This document shows, piece after piece, positions 23,881 to 45,898 of a stretch of 49,863 nucleotides of DNA. Below the pieces are notes generated by a model. The model made no database searches, was not told where the DNA came from, and saw only the letters and a program-made list of their open reading frames with translations. Each line of letters begins with the position of its first letter. Position 1 is the first letter of the stretch. The DNA is from a virus: positions 1 to 49,863 of the IMG/VR virus record IMGVR_UViG_3300006802_000134. The stretch is one strand, 5' to 3'. Made by a program: the position numbers and the translations under genes.

Positions 23881-26800
23881 ATGCCACAATTCGACTGGGC
23901 TGGAGCTAGGGCTGCGGGTTACAGCGATTCTGAGATCGCGGACTTCATCTCAGGCGTTCAGGGGTTTGATGCGCCAAGCGCCAGAAAAGCTGGCTACTCC
24001 GACGCCGACATCATTGGCTACCTGAACAAGCGATCTGGCCTTCAGGACCAGATGGCACAGCTCCGAGAGGAGGGACGCCAAGCTCAGAACAGACTAGACA
24101 CGCTTCAGGCATACGAGTCAGACAAGGAAATCCCATTCCTTGGGAGAACTGAGTTTGGTCGCCAGCTTGGTTCTGGGATCGCTCGAATGGCCGGAGGCAC
24201 GCTGCAGTTCGCTTCCGCACTGACTCCGGAAAGTCCCGCTGAGTTGGCTAGGCTTGGGTCTGTGTTTGGGCCAGGAGTTGTTGGTGGCTTGGCTGGACTG
24301 GCCGCATCCGCGATCCCTGGAGGTTTGTCGAACCGTCTTCGCGAAGCCGGAAGTGAGGTGTCTGGGCTCGCCGACATTCCAACCACAGCTCCGAAGTCGA
24401 TTTCAGAAATCGAGACCGCAGGTGATATTCCTGGGTTTCTTGGAGCGCAGGTGATTCAACAGATTCCTCAGATCCTCGCCACTGCCCCGACCGCAGGAGC
24501 TCTCCGACTTCTTGGAGCTGGCAAGACGCTGACGGGAGCTGCTGCTCCCATTATCACCACTGCACCTCAAGAGGGCGGTGCTATCTACGGAGAAATTGTT
24601 GAGGCTACTGGAGAAACTGGCCCCCTTCAGCGTGCTGCTGGTATTGGAGGTGGTCTTCTTTCTGGTGCGCTGGAGACGATCGGAGCCGTTCCAGCTGGCA
24701 CCGCTAGGAGAATCGCCCAAGGCGCAGTCAGGGAATCTGTACCACCTGTACTTGGGATCGCTGGGGCTGCGCAGCGTGAAGCGCGTGACATTGCTCAGGA
24801 GCTCGCTCAGCAATATGCGCAACGCGGTGTCGGTGGATTCGCAAGAGGAGTTGGAAAAGACATTCTTTCAGAAGGACTCACGGAGGCTGGGCAGGAGGGT
24901 GTTTCGATACTCTCTGTCGGAGCTGGTGGAGGCGGTCTTCCAACCGCACAAGAGGCGGCCACTAGAGTCATTGGGGCTGGACTCACTGGTGGTTTCATTG
25001 GTGGCGCAATAGGCGGCACCCAGTCTGGCATCGGAAGACTTGCAGATGCCCGCCGAGAGGATCGGCTGGAGCAGGAGCTTCAGGATTACTTTGGTCGTCT
25101 TGGAGCTAGGTCTGTTGATCGTGGCGATGTCGGCGCTGTCTATGGAGCGCCTTTCCAAGAGACAGTCGACACATCTGGAACTCAGGTCTCGCCTGAAGGT
25201 GGAATCGGACAGACCTACAAAGGTGTTGGCGTTCCGTTCCGAACGGCCCGTCCAAATAACGCTGCAGCTCGCAGGGCAGCAATCGAGGCTGGAATGTATT
25301 CCGAGCCGACGCCCGATGTTGTTGTTGAACCGCGTCGAGCTGGACCCATTGAAACTACAGGTGCTGCAGGAGATGTGCTTTCGACATCTGGAGTCACGAG
25401 CCCAATCGACGAGGCGATTCTCTCAGGTCGTATTCAGAGGTCAGAGCTTCCTCCGATCAACCCAGAGATACAGAAGCTATTTGATGCCGCACAGTCTGAA
25501 CTGAACGCCATCGAGTCTGATCCTAATCAAGACACAGTAAGGAGGGACGAGCTCCTTTCCGTTTCTCCGAGAATCATTCAGCTTCTGAATCGACGCATCG
25601 AAGCTGCGATTGGTGCAAATGTGGTGGATCGAAGAGTCGATCCTCTGATCGATCTATCAGCCCGACTAGACAGGTTCGTAACCGCCACGTCAGAGCAGAA
25701 CAGGCTGACAGCAGCCGCAATGGCGAATGTCAGAGAGGAGTCTCAACGCCGATCAAATAGCGAAAGCGCACTGCTTCAGGCTAGGCAGGATGCAGCCGCA
25801 GCGCTTCAGAGGTCTCCTGACGAACAGCTTGCCGCTTTGGAAGCCGCTCAGGCGAGCCGCTATGGGGCCGCCACGAGGCCGATAGCTCCAGAGCCTAGGC
25901 AGACCCTAGGAATGAGCCCAGAGGTCGCCCAGCGCCTCCGAGATCTTCGCGCACAAGAACAACGCCAACTCCAACAGATCAATGAAGCCACAGTCCAAGT
26001 TCCAGAAGCTCGTCAACCAGCTGTCCAAGAAGGGGGTCAAGGAGCCCAAGGCGCTGGCCGCGTGGATCGGGCGGCGCAAGTACGGCAAGGACAAGTTCCA
26101 GCAGATGTCGCAGGAAGGGCGGAAGTAGCGGCTGCTCAGACGCAGCCTTGGCAGGACGATTCCTATCGTGCTGGCCAGACGATCGCGGAGCAGGAGTTCG
26201 CAAGGGATCCAAACAATCCTGGCCTTCTACGGGTCAAACTTCCGTCTGATATTGCTGCCTACGAGGCGGAGCTGAACGCCGCAAACGCCCTTCCGACACG
26301 CTCTGCTCGATCAAGGGCCATCTTCGAGGCCGGACAAAAGTATGGATGGCAGTCCCAGTCGATCCCTGAGCTTCGTCAGGCGATAGGCTTGGTCTCTCGC
26401 TATCAGGAGCTTTCCGCTCAATCCAAGGCTCAGCCATCAGAACAGGCCGCCCCAGCTCAGCCAGCTGCTCCTGCTACTGCTCCTGCTCCAGTCGGGCAGG
26501 ATCAAGACCGCTCAAGCTTCATCTCTGCTGTAGAGGATGCAGAGAACAACCTTGAGTCTCCTTCGCGCCTTAAAACGCTGACAAAGAAGGCCCTTGAGTT
26601 TGGCTATATCACAAAGGCCGACCACGATGAGGTGCTTAGGGTTCAGAAGGAGTCTGGAACTAGGGACGATACATCAGACGCATTCAGTGAACTTGTTTCC
26701 TCGCTGAGGATCAACGCTCAGGGCGCTGCGGCTGCCCCAGAGGCTTATGTTTCGCGAACCGTTTTCGCTCCACCCGCACCGAAGGCTCCCGCTGCAGCTC

Positions 26801-29800
26801 CCGCTCCAGCAGCTCCTGCTCCCTTGGCGCAGACAACCATTGTCTACGCAGACGGATCCACCATTAAGGCTGGCGACTTTGTTCAGCTGAAGTCTTCGGT
26901 GTTCGGCCCGCTCAAAGAAGGAAAGCCTCTTGGTAAAACCAAGATCGCTGGACCCGCCAGCATCAACCAAGATGGCAGTCTCACCATTCAGCTTCAGGTG
27001 GTTGGTGCTGAGTCTGAAACCAAGAAGTCCGCAGAGCGCAAAACCAAGATCACCAACGCCGAGGCAAATGGCATCTCGCTGGGAGATCGCCTCACATTTA
27101 CTTCGCTTCCTGACGGCGGAGTTCGGGTTGAACGCGTCAATGCCGATGGCAAGAAGCGAGGCGAGACGGTGGTGCTCAAGAAGGGCAAGAACCCATTCAC
27201 GAAGACCGAAGCTCCTGTTGTCGATGAGCAGGATAGCGACACATCTGACAAGCTTACACCAGATCAGGAAGGTGCTCTGGCATCGCTTCAGGACTTCGAG
27301 AGCTCTCCGAAGTATCAGCGATACATGAGCCTCTTAAACAGGACCAAAACCGGTTCTGAGTCCGAAGAGGAAAAGGCGGAGCGGCAGGCTTTTGAGAACG
27401 ACCTCACAAGAGAGGAAAGGATTTTCCTAAGCGCTTCATTCCAAATCTTGGAAGGACCGAAGCAGATCGCGATAACTCTCAGCAGGAACTATCCAGGTCT
27501 ACTAATAGACGACACGAAGATCTCCAAGATGTGGACCAAGAGGGTCCTTCAATCGATTGTAAGGCGACTTCAGAATCCAGAACAGAGCGCAAATTTCAAA
27601 GTCAGTGACGCGCAAAGCCTGCTGATAAAGGACTACATTAAATGGGCATCCACTGACCCGCTTTCCAAGACTGCCGCTCCGACTAGACAGACCGACGAGG
27701 GTGGTGAGACTGAGGCCCTCGGTGGTATTGGTGTTGGCGCTTTCGCGAGAAGCCCGATGTCTGAAACTGGAGTTCCTTCCACAGTTGGCGGCATTGATGT
27801 TGGTGCCTCTATTGGTGGAAGAGGAGACGCGTTCACTCTCAATAGCATCCTGTCTGATAAACTTATCGAATACACTGTTGTTGCTGAGGAAAACAACTTC
27901 GGAAGGCCTGTAGACAAAGTTCGGTTTAGACAGGTATTTGATAAGTCGATTTCTGAGATTGATCGAACAGTCATCGGTCTGGCTCTTGGCAGAGAAATAT
28001 TAGACCCTGATATAAGGCAGCAGCTCTTCAATGAAGGGTTTGAAAAGGCGTGGGAAGTCTACTCTAAGACTGGAACTGATGGCCTTGGCTACATCGCAGA
28101 TCAGTATGAAAGCAATTCAGAGGAGCCGTTTGAGTTCCTCAGCCGCAATGTCGGCCCAGCAACCGGACTGACTGTTGCTGCTGTTGAGGATCGCCTTCTC
28201 TCTCGGTTCGGCATTCAATCTGGCGGATTGGTTCGTGTGGTGAACGACCCCAACGCGAACTTCGATGGCCGGATCTTCATCAGCAAAGCGGACGGTCGAA
28301 TCATTAGGATCGAGATCAACTCCGCGAAGGTCTCCTCCGCAGCGGACATCGACACGGTCCTGCTTCACGAGGAGTCCGAAGCCGCGAACGCGAATGGAGA
28401 GCTTGCCGCTGAGATCTCACAGGTCACGCCAGATGAGGCTGCCGAGATCGCTGCTGAGGTTGCCCGACTTGAGTACGATCCTGCCGCAGTCTCTCGCGAA
28501 GAGGACGCCCGCAAGGTCGAGCTTCTGGCCAAGGCTTGGAGGGGACGCAACTGGTTCCAGCGCATCACCGGTCGCGTGCTTGCGTGGGCCAACAGCAAGG
28601 GTGTTCGGCTCACTCGATTGGCCGCTGAGTACATCGCTGCCAAAGCAGTAGCCAAGGTTCATGCGCGTGTGTCCCGCCCATCGACGACATACACAGTCAA
28701 TGGGAACGAGGTGGTCGAGACGCTTTCCGCAATGTCGGCAACTCAGTCAATGCAGTCGCTTGATGCGGAGTATTTGGCTGCTGTTCAAGCTGGAGACATT
28801 GGTGCCGCGCAGCGCCTCGTAGATGAGGCTGCTCGCCTTGCTGGGTACGCATTGTCTGGTTATCATGCATCAAAGACTGCGTTTAACAGATTCTTATCAC
28901 TCGCCGAGCAGGCTGAAAGCAGGGGAGAGGAGCTTGAATACGGCGAATATGACGGCGGCAATTTGGGCAGGGGTTTCTACTTCACTCCAGATATTGGTTA
29001 CGCGAGGAGGTACGGAACCCCTCGCAGGTTCTACCTGAAGTCCGAAAACCTCCTCGACGCTAGAACCACTGATGTTCAAAGGGCTCTTCGTGATGTTTAT
29101 CAAGAGCTCTCTGAAGAGTATGGTTCTGTTGAACAGGGTGAAGCGTTTGACGAGTTGGCAAGCAGGTCGAATGCAGATGCTGTAATTGCCGATGGTGCTG
29201 GAGGATTTTCGTATGGGGCTCCTGAGATTCTTATTAAAGCATCACGACAGGCCAAGCTGGCTGATCCAGTTACCTATGACGACTCCGGCAACGTCATCCC
29301 TCTGAGCCAGCGGTTCAATCTTCAGTCAGCAGACATCAGGTACTCGAAGACTCCTTTCAAGACGCGAGCTCAGGTTGAATCAGAAACACGCAGGCCAGGA
29401 CTTGAGCAGTCTCAGGTCACAACCATTGAGCAGTCGGCATCAGTGCAGCGCGGACTCCTTCCAGCAGGGCTTGGAGCACAGCTGGCTGGACTCTCTGAAT
29501 CTGCTGAGCGTGGGATGCGCTGGCTGAAGTCGCTGAACGAAATCTCAACGACATCCATTCCGCTGTCGTTGATCAATGCAAACGATCCGAACAAGGGCAG
29601 CTTCAGCTATGCGGTGTGGAATCAGGGCAAGAACATCCTAGACGTTCTCGCCAAGAAAAATGCCAAGCTCGAGGCACTGCGAGAGCAGATGACATCGCCT
29701 CGCCTTATCTCAATGCTTGCTGAGGCAATGGCTGCGAAGTCTGCTGCTCAGGTTGCTGAAACCGCACAGCGCGCATTGCTTAAGGACTACTCCAAGTACA

Positions 29801-32800
29801 TTCGAGACGAGCTGCGGACATTCTCTGGAGTCGATGCGGCGCTGGAGCAGGCCAAGGTCAACGCAACCAACGCGGCCCTCTACATAAAGAAGCAGAATGC
29901 GGATGTCTCAAAGGCGATAGACATCATCTCCGATGCGGTTCCTGATTCGGTCATCGCTGCATCCAAGGCGGCCGGAAACAACGACGCGATCCTCAAGTAC
30001 GTCGTCGATAACAACGTGCTCGTTGGCAAGGTCCTTCCAGAGACGATCGCAAAGCTTCTGACGCCTCCGGCTTCTGGTAAGCGTTCCGTTCTTGAGTCCT
30101 ATCGCGGCCTCGCCTCTTCGCTCAAGACGATCAAGGACTACAAGGCCAATCTCGATCTTGCTGCGGCAGACAGGAAAGCCTTCGAGGACTACTTCGCGCT
30201 GGCCTCTACTTCTCCTGCTGCGAAGTCAAAGAAGGTGTCGATAGAGGATTTCGCGAAGCGATACTACAGGGAGAGGTCCACAAAGGAGGCTGAGCTGGAG
30301 CGCCTCAAGGCCTTGAACCTTGAGATCGAACGGATCGACAACGAGTTCGCAGCTACGCTTGAGCAGATCGCTCTGCTCGAGAGCGTCGTTGCATCTCCCG
30401 AGTTCAAGGATTCGTACGCGACCGCTACCAAGAACCTTGGCTACTCCAACCCAGAGATCCTTGGAACAGTTGATCCGCGTGGACGTGGTGAGCGATGGGT
30501 GATCGATGGTCAGGAGTACTTCTTCAATCCTCAGCTCGATGTCGCTGCCGACACAAAGGCTGGCATAGACTTCTACAAGCTTGTGTCCGCAGTGCAGGCG
30601 CGCCTTCAGCAGCTGGCCTCAGGAACTGTTGCTGTTGATCCAGTGGAGCTTGAGTCTCTCAAGCAGCTCAGCGATAGGCTGCGGAACTACGGTGCTCAGA
30701 CCGCATCTCCCGCGCTTACCGCTGGATGGCTGAACCCATTCGTCTTTGGTAGGAGATTCCCTGGAGTCAAAGCTCTGGTGAACCGGATGGCTCTGGCTCG
30801 AATGATTCCTGGGCCTATGGGCAAGAGGTTGTCTCTGCTGAATGCCATCCAAGACTCGCTCGAGAAGAAGCTATCCGCAGTCAAAGCCAATAAGTTCTTC
30901 GGAGCTCTGGCTCTGAAGGTCGCTCAGTATCGCGCCATCAAGTCTCATCCTGGGATGGATCCTATGGTGTGGCAGGAGGAGGTTGCTAACGAGCTGCTCA
31001 ACTCCCGTCAGAACGACAGGGATCCTATGATCAAGGTTGGAGAGGCCACTCCATTCGGTCACATCGTGACCAAGGAGGACCTAGCGTCCATCGAATTGCA
31101 GGCACGCTTTGCGGATCAGGTCTACGGTGTAGCCAGCGGTGATTTTGTTGGAGGAATCATCAAGCACTTCCCGAACCTCATCAGGGAGGGGAATGTATTC
31201 AGAAAGCCATTCGCCGCAGGTGCCGCAACAACTCCTCGCAGACTCCGCAGGGAGAACCACGTTGGATCTCCAGGTTTCTACGTTCAGAAGGTCCTCGACG
31301 CGGTCAACAGCATCAAGGATGAGGACGCTCAGCTGAAGGCGATCGAGGCCATCTTCGATGATCCCACTGCGTTCAGCAAGGTCCTGAGGCGGTACGTTGC
31401 TGAGACCAACAGCGACTTCGAGAACACCAGCAACTACGCTAAGATCTACGAGCAGCTGGCGATCCGCTGGCGAAAGAACCCAGCCTTGCTGCCGACTACG
31501 ACCGACGAGCTTGTCAGTCAGATCGCCGACATGAGCCCTGCAGCTGCGTCGATGTCCGACATAGAGTCCGATATTAAGCGCAGCCTGCTCGATGAGGTGC
31601 GCAAGTTCTCGATCGCGATCGACCAAGAGAAGCTCGTCAGCCAGCAGGAAGCTCGCAAATACGTCGAAGAGAGCTCGAATGGTTCCATCAGTGGTGGAAA
31701 CGATAAATCCCAAACTGCAATCGTCAGCGTTGTTGATGGGCTGAACCAGTTCACCAAGCCTCGTGGCAAGATGGTGGCACCTGGGGTGTTCTATTCGTAC
31801 ACGCTGTCTACGGACGCAGAGATCAATGGACTTCTGGTTGCCGCCCAGATTCCTTCCCTGATTCAGATCGCTCGTCAGATGATGGATGTCGAGTCCGCGC
31901 TGAAGCAGTACATCATCAACATCGGCGAGCGGATGAAGAATGATCCGGAATCGCTGAAGGCAGACATCAAGAGCGGCAAGTTCTACATCGATCGATCCAA
32001 GGCAGAGACGCTGCTTAGCCTAGTCCAGACCCTTCGCGACACGTTCACCCAGCGGGTTCAGGGCATCAATGTCCACGACGACAGTGGACTCCTGGGCCAA
32101 GCCGGTCTTGCTCAGAAGATCCTCTTGCTCACGACGCCGATGGTTCCGATCACGAACTATCTGTTCGGCGTAGCCGGTGGAGATGTTGTGGCTAGGTCGA
32201 TGACTCGAGGCCTGTCTTTCAAGTCATATCCTAGGGCGATGGCGAGCGCGCTCCTGACTGCTGGGACAAAGCCGGTGCTGCGTCTTGTCGAGAGGGCGAT
32301 CGTAACCAACCCGACCCTGTCTGCAATCATGCGCAAGAACCGAAGGGCGTTCGGTGTCTTCGCCGAGAGGTTCATCAGGGTCTCCGACGAATACGCTCGT
32401 GTTGCTCAGATTGCCAAGCTTGGTGGATGGGAACCTGAAACCGTCAGCCCATTTGAAAGCGCCAAGCTGATCTCCGAGATGGGAACCTACGGCAACGTGG
32501 TTCGTCAGCCTGGAGAAGTCGACTCCCCTTCGGCTAGGGCGATCGACAAGATGTTCTCCAATCGAGCGGTAGCCTCTCTGCGGGAGTTTATGATGAGCAT
32601 GCAGCCCAAGGCTGACGAGCTCGCCAACACCGAGATCACGAGGACCCTGCAGAAGCATCTGGCTGTGATGTTCATGGCCGGTGAGCGCATGATGCAGGTT
32701 CGTTCCAAGTCAGGTAATCCTGGCTGGGACAACTGGGCCAACCCAGACAATGTCATCACTCCTCAGGAAGCTTTCGAGAACGCTGGCTGGACGCCTGAGC

Positions 32801-34248
32801 AGCTGATCATCCTGAAGGACATGCTGGTTCCAGCTGGGAGCATTGAGTTCCTGATGGCCGACTACCACAAGCGTGTCGAAGCGGCTCGCAAAGCGGGTCA
32901 GGACATCTACTCGGTTCCGCTTATAGCTGATCAGAATGCTGAAGCAGACGTTTTGATGCGTGCGTTGGCAGCTTCCAACCTTCCTGTCGATTCTGCTCGT
33001 GCAGATGTAATCAAGACTCGCGGTGGATTCGGACGAGCTATTCGGTTCCTGATCGGATTCCCAGGCTGGATGTCGAACTGGCTTGGAACCCTCGAGGGCC
33101 TTTCCTCGATCAGCACAGAGCGCAAGGACAAGGTCATTGCTGGTGGAATTCAACTCGCGGCACTCGTTGCACTTCTCCTGCTGTTGATGCTGGCTGGAAT
33201 CCCAGCGAACGAGGCAAAGGGTGTTGCCTATGGCATCATTACTGGAAGGCCGTATTCGCAGACCACATTCAGGGATGTCATCTCTGATCCGTCCGCGAAG
33301 AACATGGCCAAGCTTGGCGGTGTTGCGATTGCGGGAATGGTTCCCTACTGGGGAGAGATTGCTGCCGGTCTGGTTGGTGCTCAGAAGAACCGAGCCGACC
33401 TCACCGACCTCACGAAGCTCAGCCCGCAGCTTGGTGCGATTTCGACGCTTTCGAGATCCATCAAGTACGCAACCGCCACCGGAGACTACGCTGGAGCAGT
33501 GCTCTCTGCGGTGCGAGGAACGCTTCCTGTTGTCAGCCCAGCGCTCAATCGAATCCCTTCTATTGCCGCTCGCGATGCGGTTTCAGATGCGGTTCGCGTT
33601 GCTTCTAGGAATGCTGGAAGCCTAGAGCTAAAGACCAGCGGTGGCGGAGGCGGAATGGAGCCGACCCAGTTCAGCTCTCTGATACGGCGTGCGGTCGCCG
33701 CCAGTGCGGCAGGCGATAATGCTGGCGCTCAGCAGCTACTGAACAAGGCTGCTGAAGTGAAGGCTGCCACTGGAGTTGGCGATCCTTGGTCTGCGGTGAA
33801 GGCGTCGCTGAAGTCTCAGTTCCCAGAGCAGAAGGCGTTCGGTCGCATGCTGTCTTCGGACGAGAAGATTGGACTGCGCTCGCGCATGAGCCCAGAGCAG
33901 CGAGCCGTCTTTGATCGCGGTGACGTTGCGATTAAGAAGCTGGTCGATGGGATCAAGCCCAAGTCCGAGCGGGCTGGTGGAATGCCTGCCGCTATGCGCC
34001 GCATCAGGGCTTTGACTCGAGGCCCGAAGGCGCTCCGCATGATCAAGACCAAGATCAAGCAGCTGCGCCCCAAGAAGCTGAAGCTTACGCGCGCCGGACG
34101 GAGCGGCTCAAGGCTGCGCGCACCAAAGCCTCTGCAGATGGCGGCCTTGGGACCCGCTTCCCGCGCACGGCGTAGGCCAGCGGGGTTGATGTCACCCTTG
34201 GGTCGAGGCTCCGTCTTAGGAATGCCCGCTGCTTCCATAGGGATCTGA
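23881..34248 (+). CDS. Giant internal virion / polyvalent-type protein with ADP-ribosyltransferase-like domain
   Basis: 3455 residues. N-terminus has two GYSDxxI repeats (about 13 and 38); Gly-rich hydrophobic stretches near 130-150 and 300-380 could insert in membranes. Long helical Gln/Ala regions follow. Near 1494 is LLHEESEAANANGEL, a metallopeptidase-like helix without the second His. Residues about 1655-1825 (GYHASKTAFNRFLSLAE; YDGGNLGRGFYFTPDIGYAR; FNLQSADIRYS) have the layout of ART domains seen in phage polyvalent proteins. A strong membrane segment (LAALVALLLLLMLAG) lies near 3085-3105, followed by a region like C-terminal domains of large polyvalent proteins, and a very basic tail. 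I infer packaging in the head and ejection into the cell, where parts may act on host targets. No RNA polymerase motif was found. Confidence 0.8.
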   Translation: MPQFDWAGARAAGYSDSEIADFISGVQGFDAPSARKAGYSDADIIGYLNKRSGLQDQMAQLREEGRQAQNRLDTLQAYESDKEIPFLGRTEFGRQLGSGIARMAGGTLQFASALTPESPAELARLGSVFGPGVVGGLAGLAASAIPGGLSNRLREAGSEVSGLADIPTTAPKSISEIETAGDIPGFLGAQVIQQIPQILATAPTAGALRLLGAGKTLTGAAAPIITTAPQEGGAIYGEIVEATGETGPLQRAAGIGGGLLSGALETIGAVPAGTARRIAQGAVRESVPPVLGIAGAAQREARDIAQELAQQYAQRGVGGFARGVGKDILSEGLTEAGQEGVSILSVGAGGGGLPTAQEAATRVIGAGLTGGFIGGAIGGTQSGIGRLADARREDRLEQELQDYFGRLGARSVDRGDVGAVYGAPFQETVDTSGTQVSPEGGIGQTYKGVGVPFRTARPNNAAARRAAIEAGMYSEPTPDVVVEPRRAGPIETTGAAGDVLSTSGVTSPIDEAILSGRIQRSELPPINPEIQKLFDAAQSELNAIESDPNQDTVRRDELLSVSPRIIQLLNRRIEAAIGANVVDRRVDPLIDLSARLDRFVTATSEQNRLTAAAMANVREESQRRSNSESALLQARQDAAAALQRSPDEQLAALEAAQASRYGAATRPIAPEPRQTLGMSPEVAQRLRDLRAQEQRQLQQINEATVQVPEARQPAVQEGGQGAQGAGRVDRAAQVRQGQVPADVAGRAEVAAAQTQPWQDDSYRAGQTIAEQEFARDPNNPGLLRVKLPSDIAAYEAELNAANALPTRSARSRAIFEAGQKYGWQSQSIPELRQAIGLVSRYQELSAQSKAQPSEQAAPAQPAAPATAPAPVGQDQDRSSFISAVEDAENNLESPSRLKTLTKKALEFGYITKADHDEVLRVQKESGTRDDTSDAFSELVSSLRINAQGAAAAPEAYVSRTVFAPPAPKAPAAAPAPAAPAPLAQTTIVYADGSTIKAGDFVQLKSSVFGPLKEGKPLGKTKIAGPASINQDGSLTIQLQVVGAESETKKSAERKTKITNAEANGISLGDRLTFTSLPDGGVRVERVNADGKKRGETVVLKKGKNPFTKTEAPVVDEQDSDTSDKLTPDQEGALASLQDFESSPKYQRYMSLLNRTKTGSESEEEKAERQAFENDLTREERIFLSASFQILEGPKQIAITLSRNYPGLLIDDTKISKMWTKRVLQSIVRRLQNPEQSANFKVSDAQSLLIKDYIKWASTDPLSKTAAPTRQTDEGGETEALGGIGVGAFARSPMSETGVPSTVGGIDVGASIGGRGDAFTLNSILSDKLIEYTVVAEENNFGRPVDKVRFRQVFDKSISEIDRTVIGLALGREILDPDIRQQLFNEGFEKAWEVYSKTGTDGLGYIADQYESNSEEPFEFLSRNVGPATGLTVAAVEDRLLSRFGIQSGGLVRVVNDPNANFDGRIFISKADGRIIRIEINSAKVSSAADIDTVLLHEESEAANANGELAAEISQVTPDEAAEIAAEVARLEYDPAAVSREEDARKVELLAKAWRGRNWFQRITGRVLAWANSKGVRLTRLAAEYIAAKAVAKVHARVSRPSTTYTVNGNEVVETLSAMSATQSMQSLDAEYLAAVQAGDIGAAQRLVDEAARLAGYALSGYHASKTAFNRFLSLAEQAESRGEELEYGEYDGGNLGRGFYFTPDIGYARRYGTPRRFYLKSENLLDARTTDVQRALRDVYQELSEEYGSVEQGEAFDELASRSNADAVIADGAGGFSYGAPEILIKASRQAKLADPVTYDDSGNVIPLSQRFNLQSADIRYSKTPFKTRAQVESETRRPGLEQSQVTTIEQSASVQRGLLPAGLGAQLAGLSESAERGMRWLKSLNEISTTSIPLSLINANDPNKGSFSYAVWNQGKNILDVLAKKNAKLEALREQMTSPRLISMLAEAMAAKSAAQVAETAQRALLKDYSKYIRDELRTFSGVDAALEQAKVNATNAALYIKKQNADVSKAIDIISDAVPDSVIAASKAAGNNDAILKYVVDNNVLVGKVLPETIAKLLTPPASGKRSVLESYRGLASSLKTIKDYKANLDLAAADRKAFEDYFALASTSPAAKSKKVSIEDFAKRYYRERSTKEAELERLKALNLEIERIDNEFAATLEQIALLESVVASPEFKDSYATATKNLGYSNPEILGTVDPRGRGERWVIDGQEYFFNPQLDVAADTKAGIDFYKLVSAVQARLQQLASGTVAVDPVELESLKQLSDRLRNYGAQTASPALTAGWLNPFVFGRRFPGVKALVNRMALARMIPGPMGKRLSLLNAIQDSLEKKLSAVKANKFFGALALKVAQYRAIKSHPGMDPMVWQEEVANELLNSRQNDRDPMIKVGEATPFGHIVTKEDLASIELQARFADQVYGVASGDFVGGIIKHFPNLIREGNVFRKPFAAGAATTPRRLRRENHVGSPGFYVQKVLDAVNSIKDEDAQLKAIEAIFDDPTAFSKVLRRYVAETNSDFENTSNYAKIYEQLAIRWRKNPALLPTTTDELVSQIADMSPAAASMSDIESDIKRSLLDEVRKFSIAIDQEKLVSQQEARKYVEESSNGSISGGNDKSQTAIVSVVDGLNQFTKPRGKMVAPGVFYSYTLSTDAEINGLLVAAQIPSLIQIARQMMDVESALKQYIINIGERMKNDPESLKADIKSGKFYIDRSKAETLLSLVQTLRDTFTQRVQGINVHDDSGLLGQAGLAQKILLLTTPMVPITNYLFGVAGGDVVARSMTRGLSFKSYPRAMASALLTAGTKPVLRLVERAIVTNPTLSAIMRKNRRAFGVFAERFIRVSDEYARVAQIAKLGGWEPETVSPFESAKLISEMGTYGNVVRQPGEVDSPSARAIDKMFSNRAVASLREFMMSMQPKADELANTEITRTLQKHLAVMFMAGERMMQVRSKSGNPGWDNWANPDNVITPQEAFENAGWTPEQLIILKDMLVPAGSIEFLMADYHKRVEAARKAGQDIYSVPLIADQNAEADVLMRALAASNLPVDSARADVIKTRGGFGRAIRFLIGFPGWMSNWLGTLEGLSSISTERKDKVIAGGIQLAALVALLLLLMLAGIPANEAKGVAYGIITGRPYSQTTFRDVISDPSAKNMAKLGGVAIAGMVPYWGEIAAGLVGAQKNRADLTDLTKLSPQLGAISTLSRSIKYATATGDYAGAVLSAVRGTLPVVSPALNRIPSIAARDAVSDAVRVASRNAGSLELKTSGGGGGMEPTQFSSLIRRAVAASAAGDNAGAQQLLNKAAEVKAATGVGDPWSAVKASLKSQFPEQKAFGRMLSSDEKIGLRSRMSPEQRAVFDRGDVAIKKLVDGIKPKSERAGGMPAAMRRIRALTRGPKALRMIKTKIKQLRPKKLKLTRAGRSGSRLRAPKPLQMAALGPASRARRRPAGLMSPLGRGSVLGMPAASIGI
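25982..26128 (+). CDS. 48-residue gene nested in the giant gene (+1 frame)
   Basis: ATG 25982 to TAG 26128 encodes a compact basic protein: MKPQSKFQKLVNQLSKKG, VKEPKALAAWIGRRKYGKDK, FQQMSQEGRK. The pattern SKFQKLV..L.KKGV..P.ALAAWIGR.KYG..KFQ.M...GRK is one I recognise from short basic phage and large-virus proteins. The DNA is clearly more GC-rich than its surroundings, while the giant frame across it (about residues 700-749) reads as low-complexity QPAVQEGGQGAQGAGR. This suggests that a small gene was inserted without breaking the long frame, or that it is still expressed. No strong Shine-Dalgarno is visible, so expression is uncertain. Confidence 0.6.
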   Translation: MKPQSKFQKLVNQLSKKGVKEPKALAAWIGRRKYGKDKFQQMSQEGRK

Positions 34249-39036: not shown

Positions 39037-40269
39037 TCACTCGTTGATCACGAGGACTTCGCCGAAGGGTGGCTTGAAGTAGCTGTTCCGCTCGGTGAGA
39101 ACCCAGAGGACTGGGCAGGATGGCTCTTCACCGAACGAGCTGCACTCGCCATCGGTGATGTAGACGACCGCCTTGGCATCGTTGTGTCGTGCGTTGACCG
39201 CTCGGAATACAGGAGCGAAGTCGGTTCCACCACCGCCGACAGGCTTGAGGTCGCTGATGTCGCTGACCACCTGCTCGGTCAGCTTGGTGTCGCACCACAT
39301 GACGGTGATGCCTTGGGTGTGCTGCTCCTCATACACATCCAGTGCGGAGATGATCTCGGAGAAGACACGCGGAAGGACGCTGGTCATGGAACCAGACGTG
39401 TCACCAGCCAGCACCACCTTGCCGATGCCATAGCTGTCGAGACTTGGCAGCACGATGCCACGATTGAAGTAGCGTGGGTTGGGTCGCTGCCACGAGTAGT
39501 CGGATCGAGCACGCTCGCCGATGAACCGCTGCAGCACATCACGCCAGTCCACCTTGGGCTCGAGCACCTGCTCGATGAGCCTGTCCATTCCCGCTGGCAG
39601 CTTGCCTGCACGCTTTGCAGCGGTGTCGGCCTGCTTGGTGATGATGTCAACGTCGCGCTCTGCCTGAGCCTTCTCGGCATCGGACAGGTCGCCACCGTTC
39701 TCACTCTTCTGATCACGCACATCGCCCCAGCCTTGGCCCTTCTGATCGCTCTTGGGAGGATCGCCTTGGATTTCCTGCTCACCTTGCTCCTGCCCCTGCT
39801 GCTGGCTTTGACGAGGCACTCTTTGGCCTCCGCCTTCGCCTTGGCCTTGGCCTTGTGGTTGCTGCTGCTGTTGCTGTTTCTGCTTCTGGAGCAGGCCATC
39901 GTAGACTTCCTCAGCGGTCTTGCCACGAATTGGCGGCAACGCTCCGTCCGGCAGCTTGAGTCCGCTGTCGAGGACCAGTGCGTTGACAACGTGGTCGCAG
40001 GCGATGTTCCACAGGACCGGATCACGATCCTTGCGCCGAAGCATATGCTTGAGGAAGACATGAGCGGCCTCGTGAGCGAGCACGCCGATGGTCTGTTCCT
40101 TGCCGATCTTCTCGCAGAACTCAGGGTTGTACCCGAGCCGCTTGCCATCGGTCCACATAGTCGCTGACGTGTCGACAACCTTCTCGAGGTTGAGCAGTAG
40201 CGTGGACCAGAATGGATGGTCGCAGACGAGTGCGACGTACGCCTTGTCGATGATTGGATGCTTCTTCAC
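39037..40269 (-). CDS. VWA-like protein with putative metallopeptidase domain (DUF2201-like)
   Basis: 410 residues from GTG 40269 (GTGA overlap with the ATPase stop; ATG 40299 is the alternative). The N-terminal domain has AHEAAHVFLKH, a zinc-binding HExxH at about residues 66-70. A Gln/Gly-rich linker (about 130-180) leads to the VWA domain with MIDAS motif GDTSGSM near 290, VGGGGTDFAPVF supplying the Thr, and VVYITDGECSSF supplying the Asp. This arrangement matches the DUF2201 family, which commonly pairs with MoxR AAA+ ATPases. Such pairs act as metal-cofactor chaperones or remodel protein complexes. Its role in a phage is unknown. Confidence 0.88.
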   Translation of the reverse strand: MKKHPIIDKAYVALVCDHPFWSTLLLNLEKVVDTSATMWTDGKRLGYNPEFCEKIGKEQTIGVLAHEAAHVFLKHMLRRKDRDPVLWNIACDHVVNALVLDSGLKLPDGALPPIRGKTAEEVYDGLLQKQKQQQQQQPQGQGQGEGGGQRVPRQSQQQGQEQGEQEIQGDPPKSDQKGQGWGDVRDQKSENGGDLSDAEKAQAERDVDIITKQADTAAKRAGKLPAGMDRLIEQVLEPKVDWRDVLQRFIGERARSDYSWQRPNPRYFNRGIVLPSLDSYGIGKVVLAGDTSGSMTSVLPRVFSEIISALDVYEEQHTQGITVMWCDTKLTEQVVSDISDLKPVGGGGTDFAPVFRAVNARHNDAKAVVYITDGECSSFGEEPSCPVLWVLTERNSYFKPPFGEVLVINE

Positions 40270-41255
40270 AGGATTACTGATTGGTTGTTGATGAGCCACT
40301 TGGTGAGGGCCGGAGAGGATTCCAGCGCCTTGGACTTGGCGATGCAGTCGCGGACCAGCATCACCCGAAACTCAGGGGACATCCGCTCGGAGTACTTCAG
40401 GACGTTACCGAAGTTGCCTGCGGTGACTCGGAAGGCCAGCGCTGCAGCGGTGGCGTAGAGAACATCGGGACGGGTGGGAAGGTCGCTGCCGTCCGGATCC
40501 TTGAGCACGCCGTCAATGTCCGGCATGTGGTCGCGGGTCTTGCGGAAGGCTGCGAACTCGGTGGCGAACCCCTCGCCGCACGCCGACTTGTAGGTGTCGA
40601 AGTCGTCGAGTCCGATGTTGATGAGGTCGCCCAGCTTGGCAACCGACCGAGGCGTGGGGCACTTGGACAGGTCGTCCTTGGGCTGCTTGAAGTCGCTGAT
40701 GAGCGAGGGACGCCAGCGAGCGAAGCCGATGAGAGGTTCGGGCTGACCATTCTGCAGTGCCCAGCCAACCCAGTCGTTGGAGTCGAACTCAAGCTCGTAG
40801 ATCTGGTCGAAGCGATCGAGCAGTGGCGTGATGAACGTTCCGACACCCGCCTTGTCGCTGCGTCGGTTGGTGGCAGCAGCGAAGGTGACGTGCTCGCTGA
40901 TGGCGTGGCCGTTGACCTTGCGGCAGAGGATCAGCTGCATGAGCGCGGCCTGCACCGAAGTCGGAGCCTGTCCGATGTCGTCGAGGAAGAAGAGCGTGGG
41001 CTTGTCCGCCTCGATGAGTTGGTTGAGGTCGCCGAATGGCAGGAAGTGGGCGTTGCCATCGACGATGGCAGGCATGCCCTTGTAGTCGGTCGGGTCGGAC
41101 ACGACAGGATGGCTGATGATGCACCGCAGACCAGCCTGCTTGGCGGCCTCGACGATGCAGTCGGTCTTGCCAAGCCCAGGCGACCCCGTAAGGAGGAAGG
41201 GCTTGCGGTGACGCATGAGGGTTGCAATGCGCTTGATGATTTCGGAGGACTTCAT
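40266..41255 (-). CDS. MoxR-family AAA+ ATPase
   Basis: 329 residues. Walker A TGSPGLGKTD (about 23-32), Walker B TLFFLDDIGQ (about 86-95), sensor 1 AATNRR (about 127), arginine-finger region TPLLDRFDQIYEL, matching MoxR/CbbQ-like ATPases. It would form a ring that remodels a target using its VWA partner, which is translated from an overlapping start. The ATG lies only nine bases after operator copy 3 (41265-41277), so the pair is under control of the same regulator as other early units. No Shine-Dalgarno is seen. Confidence 0.92.
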   Translation of the reverse strand: MKSSEIIKRIATLMRHRKPFLLTGSPGLGKTDCIVEAAKQAGLRCIISHPVVSDPTDYKGMPAIVDGNAHFLPFGDLNQLIEADKPTLFFLDDIGQAPTSVQAALMQLILCRKVNGHAISEHVTFAAATNRRSDKAGVGTFITPLLDRFDQIYELEFDSNDWVGWALQNGQPEPLIGFARWRPSLISDFKQPKDDLSKCPTPRSVAKLGDLINIGLDDFDTYKSACGEGFATEFAAFRKTRDHMPDIDGVLKDPDGSDLPTRPDVLYATAAALAFRVTAGNFGNVLKYSERMSPEFRVMLVRDCIAKSKALESSPALTKWLINNQSVIL

Positions 41256-43748: not shown

Positions 43749-43904
43749 TCAGATCCCCCAGTCGTTGCGGAGGAAGTGCCTCGCCACCCGCCACTGGCCC
43801 TTGGCGGAAGGGTTGCCCCGAATGGAGCACCGAATCGCCCGAATGTACTGGGCGATGGGACGCCACACCTTGTCGGTATGGTATTTCCACTGGGGCGTGT
43901 TCAT
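43749..43904 (-). CDS. Small basic protein
   Basis: 51 residues from ATG 43904 (ATGA overlap). MNTPQWKYHTDKVWRPIAQY then IRAIRCSIRGNPSAKGQWRV and ARHFLRNDWGI. Rich in Arg and Trp; could bind nucleic acid. Not recognised. Confidence 0.55.
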   Translation of the reverse strand: MNTPQWKYHTDKVWRPIAQYIRAIRCSIRGNPSAKGQWRVARHFLRNDWGI

Positions 43905-44158: not shown

Positions 44159-44226
44159 TACTAGTGTTCCTTGTTTCGGCCTTGCTGGGCCTTCATCAGT
44201 CCCTGAGCATTACAGGGAGACAAGGA

Positions 44227-44641: not shown

Positions 44642-44675
44642 AGTGCTTGTGTGTGTTTGTTTTGTGTTGTGTGAT

Positions 44676-44700
44676 TCAGGACACCCATCGGATGTCCTGA
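44676..44700 (-). promoter_or_regulatory. Leader hairpin
   Basis: TCAGGACA (44676-44683) pairs exactly with TGTCCTGA (44693-44700). It stands 35 bases upstream of ATG 44641, before the A/C-rich stretch CACAACACAAAACAAACACA. It may end the upstream structured RNA or stabilise the leader. Confidence 0.5.
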
Positions 44701-44701
44701 G

Positions 44702-45780
44702 GTCACAACACAAGCGAACGAGCCTAGACTTGGCCTAGGCGAGACTTGGCAATGCCGACGCTGTAAAGCGCCTTGGTCTTGTTCGCTGGTGTCGTGTTGA
44801 AAAACCGCTTATCGTACGGTCTGCCACGCCGCTTTTGGTCAACCGCACCAAGGTAGAGTTGTGGTGCGGCAAGGATGCTTTCGGGGGATACGGAAACCCC
44901 AAGGACTTTGATTCCTTCCTTTTCCAGTGCGCCCCGCCACGTGCTGCTCTTGCAAGGGGGATCGAATCCTTAACCGCCTGTCCCTTGCCGCAATCGGAGG
45001 CCAAGCCGTAGCCCAGCCCGCGATATGTCACGCTCCCCAAAAGGAATGGGTATCGTCGCGCAAAACCCGTCAGGAGTCTTTACCTGACGTTCCAGCATTT
45101 AGCCGCTGGGGTGCCTCCGCACTGGCCGTGAACCGCCTTACCGCCCTGCCTCTCGTCGCGCCGGACAACCAAGTCCGCCACAGTGCCCCCCATACTTTGG
45201 GACCGGAGCCCGAGTCGATGTCCTCCGGTTTGGAACTGCTCAACGCTACAAAACAAGAGACGCTAGGGTCTGCGTTTTTCGCCAGTGCTGCCTGCCTTAA
45301 AGAACCGCCGGAGTATCAATCCCCGACACTCTACAGTCGACTTGGCAGCGGATACGGTTCCGTTCCTAGGTGCCGGAGGGTAACACAATGGATTCCCTCA
45401 GGCTTGGCCGGTTCAGCCTGTATGGCAGGCTCGCTTTCGGACTGGTTCAGACATAGGGGAGGGGTAGAGCGGGGTTCGACAAAAATATCGTATGGGATAT
45501 AGGGTACCCCCCTTCTCAACTCTCTTGGATTTCCACAGGTTGACCCACCCCATCAACTCTCTGGAGATTCCATAGGGGGGGTAGGGCTCCCTCTTACCAT
45601 CCTCACCACCATCATTCCCAGATTCGGGTGGACGGTTAGGGGATTCACCTATCACCGCTCACGACACAGCTTATTGGGCTAGGGGGCACCTCCTGAGTCT
45701 GCTAGGGCAGACTCATTGCTAACCACAGGCCACTCACTTATTCAGCAGGAGCAGCTGGGGGATACATAAGGGGATTCTGG
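44702..45780 (-). ncRNA. About 1.1 kb non-coding region, candidate large structured RNA
   Basis: No frame gives convincing protein. Paired elements by eye: GCCTAG/CTAGGC (44722-44727, 44735-44740), CCGCACCA/TGGTGCGG (near 44841-44867), GCAAGGG/CCCTTGC (near 44952-44989), CGTCAGG/CCTGACG (near 45068-45090), ACCGGAG/CTCCGGT (near 45202-45230), GAGTCTGC/GCAGACTC (45695-45714). Length, density of stems and phage setting fit the giant ornate RNA classes of environmental phages (GOLLD or ROOL type), but I cannot match a consensus from memory. Minus orientation is assumed from neighbours. From 45480 to 45780 the sequence is looser and may hold the promoter. Confidence 0.5.
45695..45714. other. Perfect 8-bp hairpin in non-coding region
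   Basis: GAGTCTGC, loop TAGG, GCAGACTC. It is the strongest stem between 45480 and 45898 and is equally stable on both strands. Confidence 0.6.
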
Positions 45781-45898
45781 ATACCTCTGTCAAGCCTTAG
45801 TCCTGTCACACAGAATAGTAGAATAGTAGGAATGGTAGGGGTGTATGGCGGTTGTGACTCAGTGTTGAAGGGGGTGGCTGGGATGGGAGGGTCTGGCT

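Follow-up and report, generated by a model that had tools for sequence, protein, structure and literature searches.

A candidate large structured RNA with exchangeable domains at the head of a ribozyme-rich phage operon

The window analysed here is the whole of IMG/VR virus record IMGVR_UViG_3300006802_000134 (49,863 nt; W in the comparisons below), and the stretch under study is the long slot between gene A, a leftward gene, and a divergent gene for an IrrE-like metallopeptidase (Table 1). The AlphaFold model of the gene A protein is of low confidence (pLDDT 66.5). A sequence-only reading had proposed that this stretch holds a giant structured RNA rather than a convincing gene, with a leader hairpin on one side and a divergent gene on the other; both flanking features are present, and the minus-strand region is better delimited at ~45,770 (start) and 44,642 (gene A). 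The window also contains a neighbouring minus-strand pair, a DUF2201 metallopeptidase/VWA-like protein and an AAA ATPase (39037-41255), and an open frame of 3,455 codons (23881-34248), very large for a phage.

Table 1. Positions of the region's features, in window coordinates unless another locus is named
Feature	Position	Strand	Remarks
Divergent IrrE-like metallopeptidase, 82 aa	45899..46147	plus	Pfam PF06114, E 0.00029, just under curated cut-off
Promoter-like start	45764..45793	minus	TTGACA 45793-45788; TTATGT/TATGTA ~45769-45763
5' hairpin, constant CCCUAG loop, covarying 6-9 bp stem	45694..45715	minus	~50 nt past predicted start
Invariant GAGUUGAGAAGGGGGGUAC (G-run block)	45504..45522	minus	identical in 11 aligned relatives
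Hypervariable linker	45300..45457	minus	alternating CG-rich runs in relatives
M3 domain	45114..45288	minus	closed by GCACUGGC/GCCAGUGC; in L005 by ACACUGGC/GCCAGUGU
M2 core domain	44797..45112	minus	11 helices; outer helix 45063-45058 with 44829-44824
Last M2 hairpin (ACCG/CGGU; ACGG/CCGU in relatives), then U run	44803..44821	minus	from alignment
Type-1 leader of gene A	44642..44799	minus	branched domain and 3' hairpin (~44673-44700), conserved alternative pairing
Gene A, 128 aa	44255..44641	minus	no known family
Type III hammerhead motif with an additional A preceding stem II	44168..44226	minus	3' of gene A
Twister-P5	L024 11164-11219; L011 1067-1015; G009 68331-68383		related phages, same operon

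The claim that the stretch lacks a convincing gene holds up. Its longest open frame (44927-45502, plus strand) has zero Pfam matches, and when a conserved coding frame was sought across relatives, long ORFs were found to shift place and strand from locus to locus. Within the M2 core, indels between relatives measure 1, 2, 3, 14, 24 and 31 bases, most of them not multiples of three.

These relatives come from 14 IMG/VR loci retrieved via the metallopeptidase. One of them, L002, is W's own virus on a 63 kb contig, and the majority of the remainder contain the region in whole or in part; L024 and L027 were added by means of a 19-mer taken from the region. In W, L005, L006, L007, L008, L011 and L024, gene A and the metallopeptidase are separated by 947-1,257 non-coding bases, and L010, a contig with a 127-base overlap of its ends, provides an additional slot of 997 bases. 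The layout of the slot, in which a promoter-like TTGACA start is followed by the CCCUAG-loop hairpin and GAGUUGAGAAGGGGGGUAC, is common to 7-11 related IMG/VR phages, and the middle of the region is a mosaic that is exchangeable between relatives, M2 being common to W, L011 and L024 and M3 to W, L005 and L003. Homologues of the region were found neither in genome contigs nor in named phages, and ~70 more distant metallopeptidase loci outside the phage group lack the slot, with no match beyond one 19-base hit. In the genome collection the terminase has a single relative (L148, 77% identical), whose contig was binned to an Armatimonadetes MAG; this hints only weakly at the host. Several contigs (L003, L004, L009, L010, L012 and L013) end within or beside the region at differing points, as expected if the region varies between strains.

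At the 5' side, where the RNA is predicted to start near 45,757, the start motif keeps its position in all relatives, with TTAAGAT and TAACAT as -10 variants; since an automatic consensus sigma-70 scan did not flag it and conservation is what speaks for it, we refer to it as promoter-like only. The stem of the CCCUAG hairpin changes on both sides between relatives (TGAGTCTGC/GCAGACTCA, CCTCGACG/CGTCGAGG, CCGCGTAG/CTACGCGG and CTCGGC/GCCGAG), and the G-run block has a possible pairing partner, UACCCC(U)CCC, ~40 nt downstream. Covariation over the whole 5' module reached z -3.2 in clade 2, with no signal in clade 1 (z -0.9), and on the minus strand the linker (45,457-45,300) lacked any RNA covariation signal (z 0.07). 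Two further loci, L029 (3360-3398) and L030 (2222-2260), share a GCTTGACA-N19-TANNTA-like-CCCC pattern; inspection by eye revealed no further similarity to the region, and the pattern may represent a kind of promoter used in the host group, or may have arisen by chance.

The strong stems noted in the sequence-only reading do exist, but they are not unusual by single-sequence folding: in 150-base windows across 44,801-45,700 the folding energy equals that of dinucleotide-shuffled sequence on either strand (z ~-1.1 to +1.7), and the 7-8 bp matches spread over 1 kb that had been taken as a signal are expected by chance. The sole stretch that folds exceptionally is 44,651-44,800 (z -8.3 on the minus strand, -4.1 on the plus strand). 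As local folding elsewhere was no better than shuffled, the structure claim had to be tested via relatives, and there covariation in the core and in the leader of gene A lies far above that of column shuffles. For M2 (W, L011 and L024), RNAalifold scored against column-shuffled alignments gave z -5.1 on the minus strand (0/200) and z -1.4 on the plus strand (16/200). The M2 alignment (A4) comprises 64 pairs with 92.1% of cells paired, a hairpin helix of 45050-45046 with 45040-45036 among its helices, and 18 of the 64 pairs are changed on both sides in a structure derived from this same three-sequence alignment; the mean under shuffling was 6.6 (0/500), and controls with slid partner register gave at most 4. 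Given that origin of the structure, RNAalifold against column shuffles is the fairer of these tests. The covarying pairs include G-U on the minus strand. M3 is weaker, with a modest minus-strand signal (z -2.0 with three sequences, -3.4 with W and L005 only). Pattern scans for wider M2 homologues gave chance hits unlike the core and resembling ordinary coding DNA, which we rejected, and M2 was found only in its three sequences. The last M2 hairpin and its U run may be a weak terminator or a 3' end; a terminator scan flagged neither this element nor any strong terminator ahead of gene A in W.

Downstream of M2, the type-1 leader of gene A (W, L007 and L011) covaries with z -8.8 on the minus strand and -7.0 on the plus strand, and fills the slot that elsewhere holds an HDV-like motif; L006 has another leader. 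One of its strands, GCUUGUGUUGUG, and the counterparts of this strand in the three loci can pair either upstream or downstream in a switch-like manner. The N-terminal type of gene A tracks the leader type in 7/7 relatives, with type 1 in W, L007 and L011, type 2 in L005, L008 and L024 (all three with the HDV-like element), and type 3 in L006, and the C-terminal tails are exchanged separately from the N-terminal types. This co-occurrence may reflect simple linkage or a match between protein and RNA.

In L005, L008, L010 and L024 the HDV-like motif separates the RNA from gene A. It is built of P1 [AG]CCCNNN/NNNGGGT, P2 GCAAGCG/CGCTTGC, P3 GCG/CGC, L3 TCC[AT]CGT and J4/2 GGCCAA, and in all four loci it shows the nested double pseudoknot of P1/P2/P3/P4 with the catalytic C in J4/2. 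P1 covaries (ACCCATC/GATGGGT; [AG]CCCTAG/CTAGGGT), the elements end 9-14 nt ahead of the gene A start where measured, and the distances from predicted start to predicted cut are 727, 854, 798 and 913 nt. The topology scan, in which L119 is the L010 contig, also returned one unrelated hit and one in shuffled sequence, or about one chance hit per Mb. Rfam HDV-type models, which do not represent pseudoknots, gave no hit in L005, L008 and L024 at E up to 3, and neither the scan nor inspection by eye found the HDV-like topology in W, including its type-1 leader.

Hammerhead motifs occupy the spacer after gene A, of type III in W, L005 and L007 and of type I in L008, L011 and L024. The W motif has the CUGANGA ... 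GAAA core, three stems and an NUH cleavage site, and scores 32.5 bits with RF00008 (E 0.00015), under the gathering score of 48.5; Rfam scores are below gathering in all six. A scan of all loci (~1 Mb), whose rules were loosened one time to allow for the extra A of W, gave six hits with distinct sequences, every one in the post-gene A spacer, compared to 0 in 1 Mb of shuffled sequence. Farther down the operon, twister-P5 motifs score above the Rfam cut-off in L010, L011, L024 and L027. We also observed a repeated leader element in W (43751-43702 and 43394-43341, minus strand), in L006 (248) and in L007 (4053 and 3690), with the pattern UGAUY-NNCRCUCC-hairpin-YUGGGAGRC-RAUCA ~20-25 nt ahead of start codons. 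Its outer and inner stems covary, an alternative GAGRC/GYCUC hairpin can form, and it matches no Rfam family. In the other clade, a spacer situated a few genes downstream of gene A holds a twister-P5 motif.

The sequence-only reading had likened the RNA to GOLLD or ROOL, and this comparison fails: covariance models for GOLLD, ROOL and OLE gave no hit in the region at E up to 10, all other Rfam families were likewise rejected for lack of a match at gathering score, the hammerhead being the only credible Rfam hit, and no tRNA or tmRNA was found in the window nor any tRNA in the nine relative loci scanned. Without a model match and without tRNA we do not file the RNA with GOLLD or ROOL, which are large phage RNAs often, though for GOLLD not as a strict criterion, associated with tRNA islands and forming RNA-only cages (PMC12286853). 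The region resembles GOLLD as a phage or prophage RNA of >800 nt and of unknown function with one conserved and one variable region, and ROOL in combining large size, structure and a phage setting with a variable linker (PMC12286853); however, its conserved part is 5' whereas that of GOLLD is 3', its operon carries ribozyme motifs, and the model match and tRNA islands of ROOL are missing. That it is a diverged GOLLD, ROOL, OLE or other known large RNA overlooked by the models, as size, phage setting and the combination of a conserved with a variable part might suggest, is thus highly improbable.

The ribozyme motifs have their own precedents. Theta (HDV-like) ribozymes of phages cut at tRNA 3' ends, and the HDV-like motif is similarly placed so that a cut would give the phage RNA upstream of it a 3' end, but theta ribozymes are minimal, lack P4 and follow a tRNA, whereas here an RNA of ~0.7-0.9 kb lies upstream and a P4-like stem is present (PMC10879173). 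Prophage hammerheads that flank genes have been proposed to split long transcripts into gene-length pieces (PMC3088659); those described here also lie between phage genes, but hammerhead, twister and HDV-like motifs occur together in one short operon headed by a large RNA.

Non-coding status and conserved covarying structure, two marks of a large structured phage ncRNA, are both found, the core from three sequences, and the stretch at ~44,650-45,770 is best read as a structured RNA of ~0.95-1.1 kb on the minus strand. The proposal of a giant RNA of ~1 kb thus stands as regards covariation, minus-strand bias, conserved start, non-coding status and shared slot, and not as regards membership of GOLLD or ROOL. 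Sequence-level support extends to the non-coding status, the covarying structure, the strand bias, the conserved layout and the ribozyme motifs; transcription, cleavage, a free RNA and its function are what we infer.

On balance we favour a joint reading, in which an ncRNA read leftward from ~45,757, with a fixed 5' part and exchangeable domains, would head a ribozyme-cut operon and probably act once freed. The fixed part would consist of the CCCUAG-loop hairpin and the invariant G-run block, followed by swappable folded domains, M3 and M2 in W, and self-cleaving ribozymes would cut the operon transcript into pieces. The HDV-like ribozyme just upstream of gene A in the relatives would cleave at the 5' end of its own sequence, freeing an RNA of 727-913 nt, and in W the 3' end would be formed either by the M2 hairpin/U-run or within the type-1 leader, for a length of ~960-1,100 nt. 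During infection the free RNA would most likely act in folded form or as an RNA-protein particle, and the fast exchange of modules suggests a changing partner, e.g. a host factor.

The 3' end in W is uncertain, there being no recognised ribozyme or strong terminator, and a long cis leader of gene A therefore stays the main rival. Such a very long structured 5' UTR, acting in cis on translation or termination and perhaps binding the gene A protein, is a minority possibility that deserves serious weight: the RNA would lie on the same strand as gene A and directly upstream of it, leader and N-terminal types agree in 7/7 relatives, the type-1 leader has its conserved alternative pairing, and no strong terminator precedes gene A in W. 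However, the HDV-like motif in four relatives would sever the upstream RNA from the message, a cis leader of ~1 kb would be a long one, and M2 is found with both leader types (type 1 in L011, HDV-like in L024) and is thus not tied to one gene A type.

It is also improbable that a DNA element (a replication origin, a packaging or partition site, or a recombination hot spot) mimics RNA structure here, even if the position between divergent genes, the hypervariable mosaic with alternating CG runs and G-runs in relatives, and the frequent contig breaks would suit one, because M2 covariation is strand-specific and includes G-U pairs on the minus strand, a promoter-like start is conserved with ribozyme motifs on the same strand, and the contig breaks are scattered rather than marking one physical end. 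A functional RNA confined to the leader and ribozymes, with decayed genes or spacer making up the remainder, would account for the linker without RNA signal, the ordinary single-sequence folding and the modest signal of M3; we give it a similarly low probability, as M2 covaries across ~315 nt, the CCCUAG hairpin is present and size is kept among diverged relatives. Beyond the joint reading preferred above, we consider, as a rather doubtful extension, a class of ~1 kb phage RNAs made of exchangeable domains and released by ribozymes, with different ribozyme classes at several operon junctions, for which the type-1 leader and the elements at 43751 and 43394 would be undescribed self-cleaving stand-ins for the HDV-like and twister motifs of relatives.

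Folds that are kept while the letters change, together with a putative self-cutting motif at the predicted release point in several relatives, point to large viral RNAs of a new family, and what is new here is the candidate large RNA and the mix of ribozyme motif classes within one short operon. To our knowledge, very few RNAs this large and complex exist beyond ribosomes, RNase P, introns and tmRNA, and we know of no function for phage GOLLD and ROOL. Guilt-by-association reasoning has yielded pistol, hatchet and twister-sister (PMC10085705), and ribozyme-rich spacers such as these are a good hunting ground for undescribed ribozymes. Moreover, the swapping of domains among close relatives, and in some members a 3' end apparently defined by a ribozyme, offer natural variants for tests of function.
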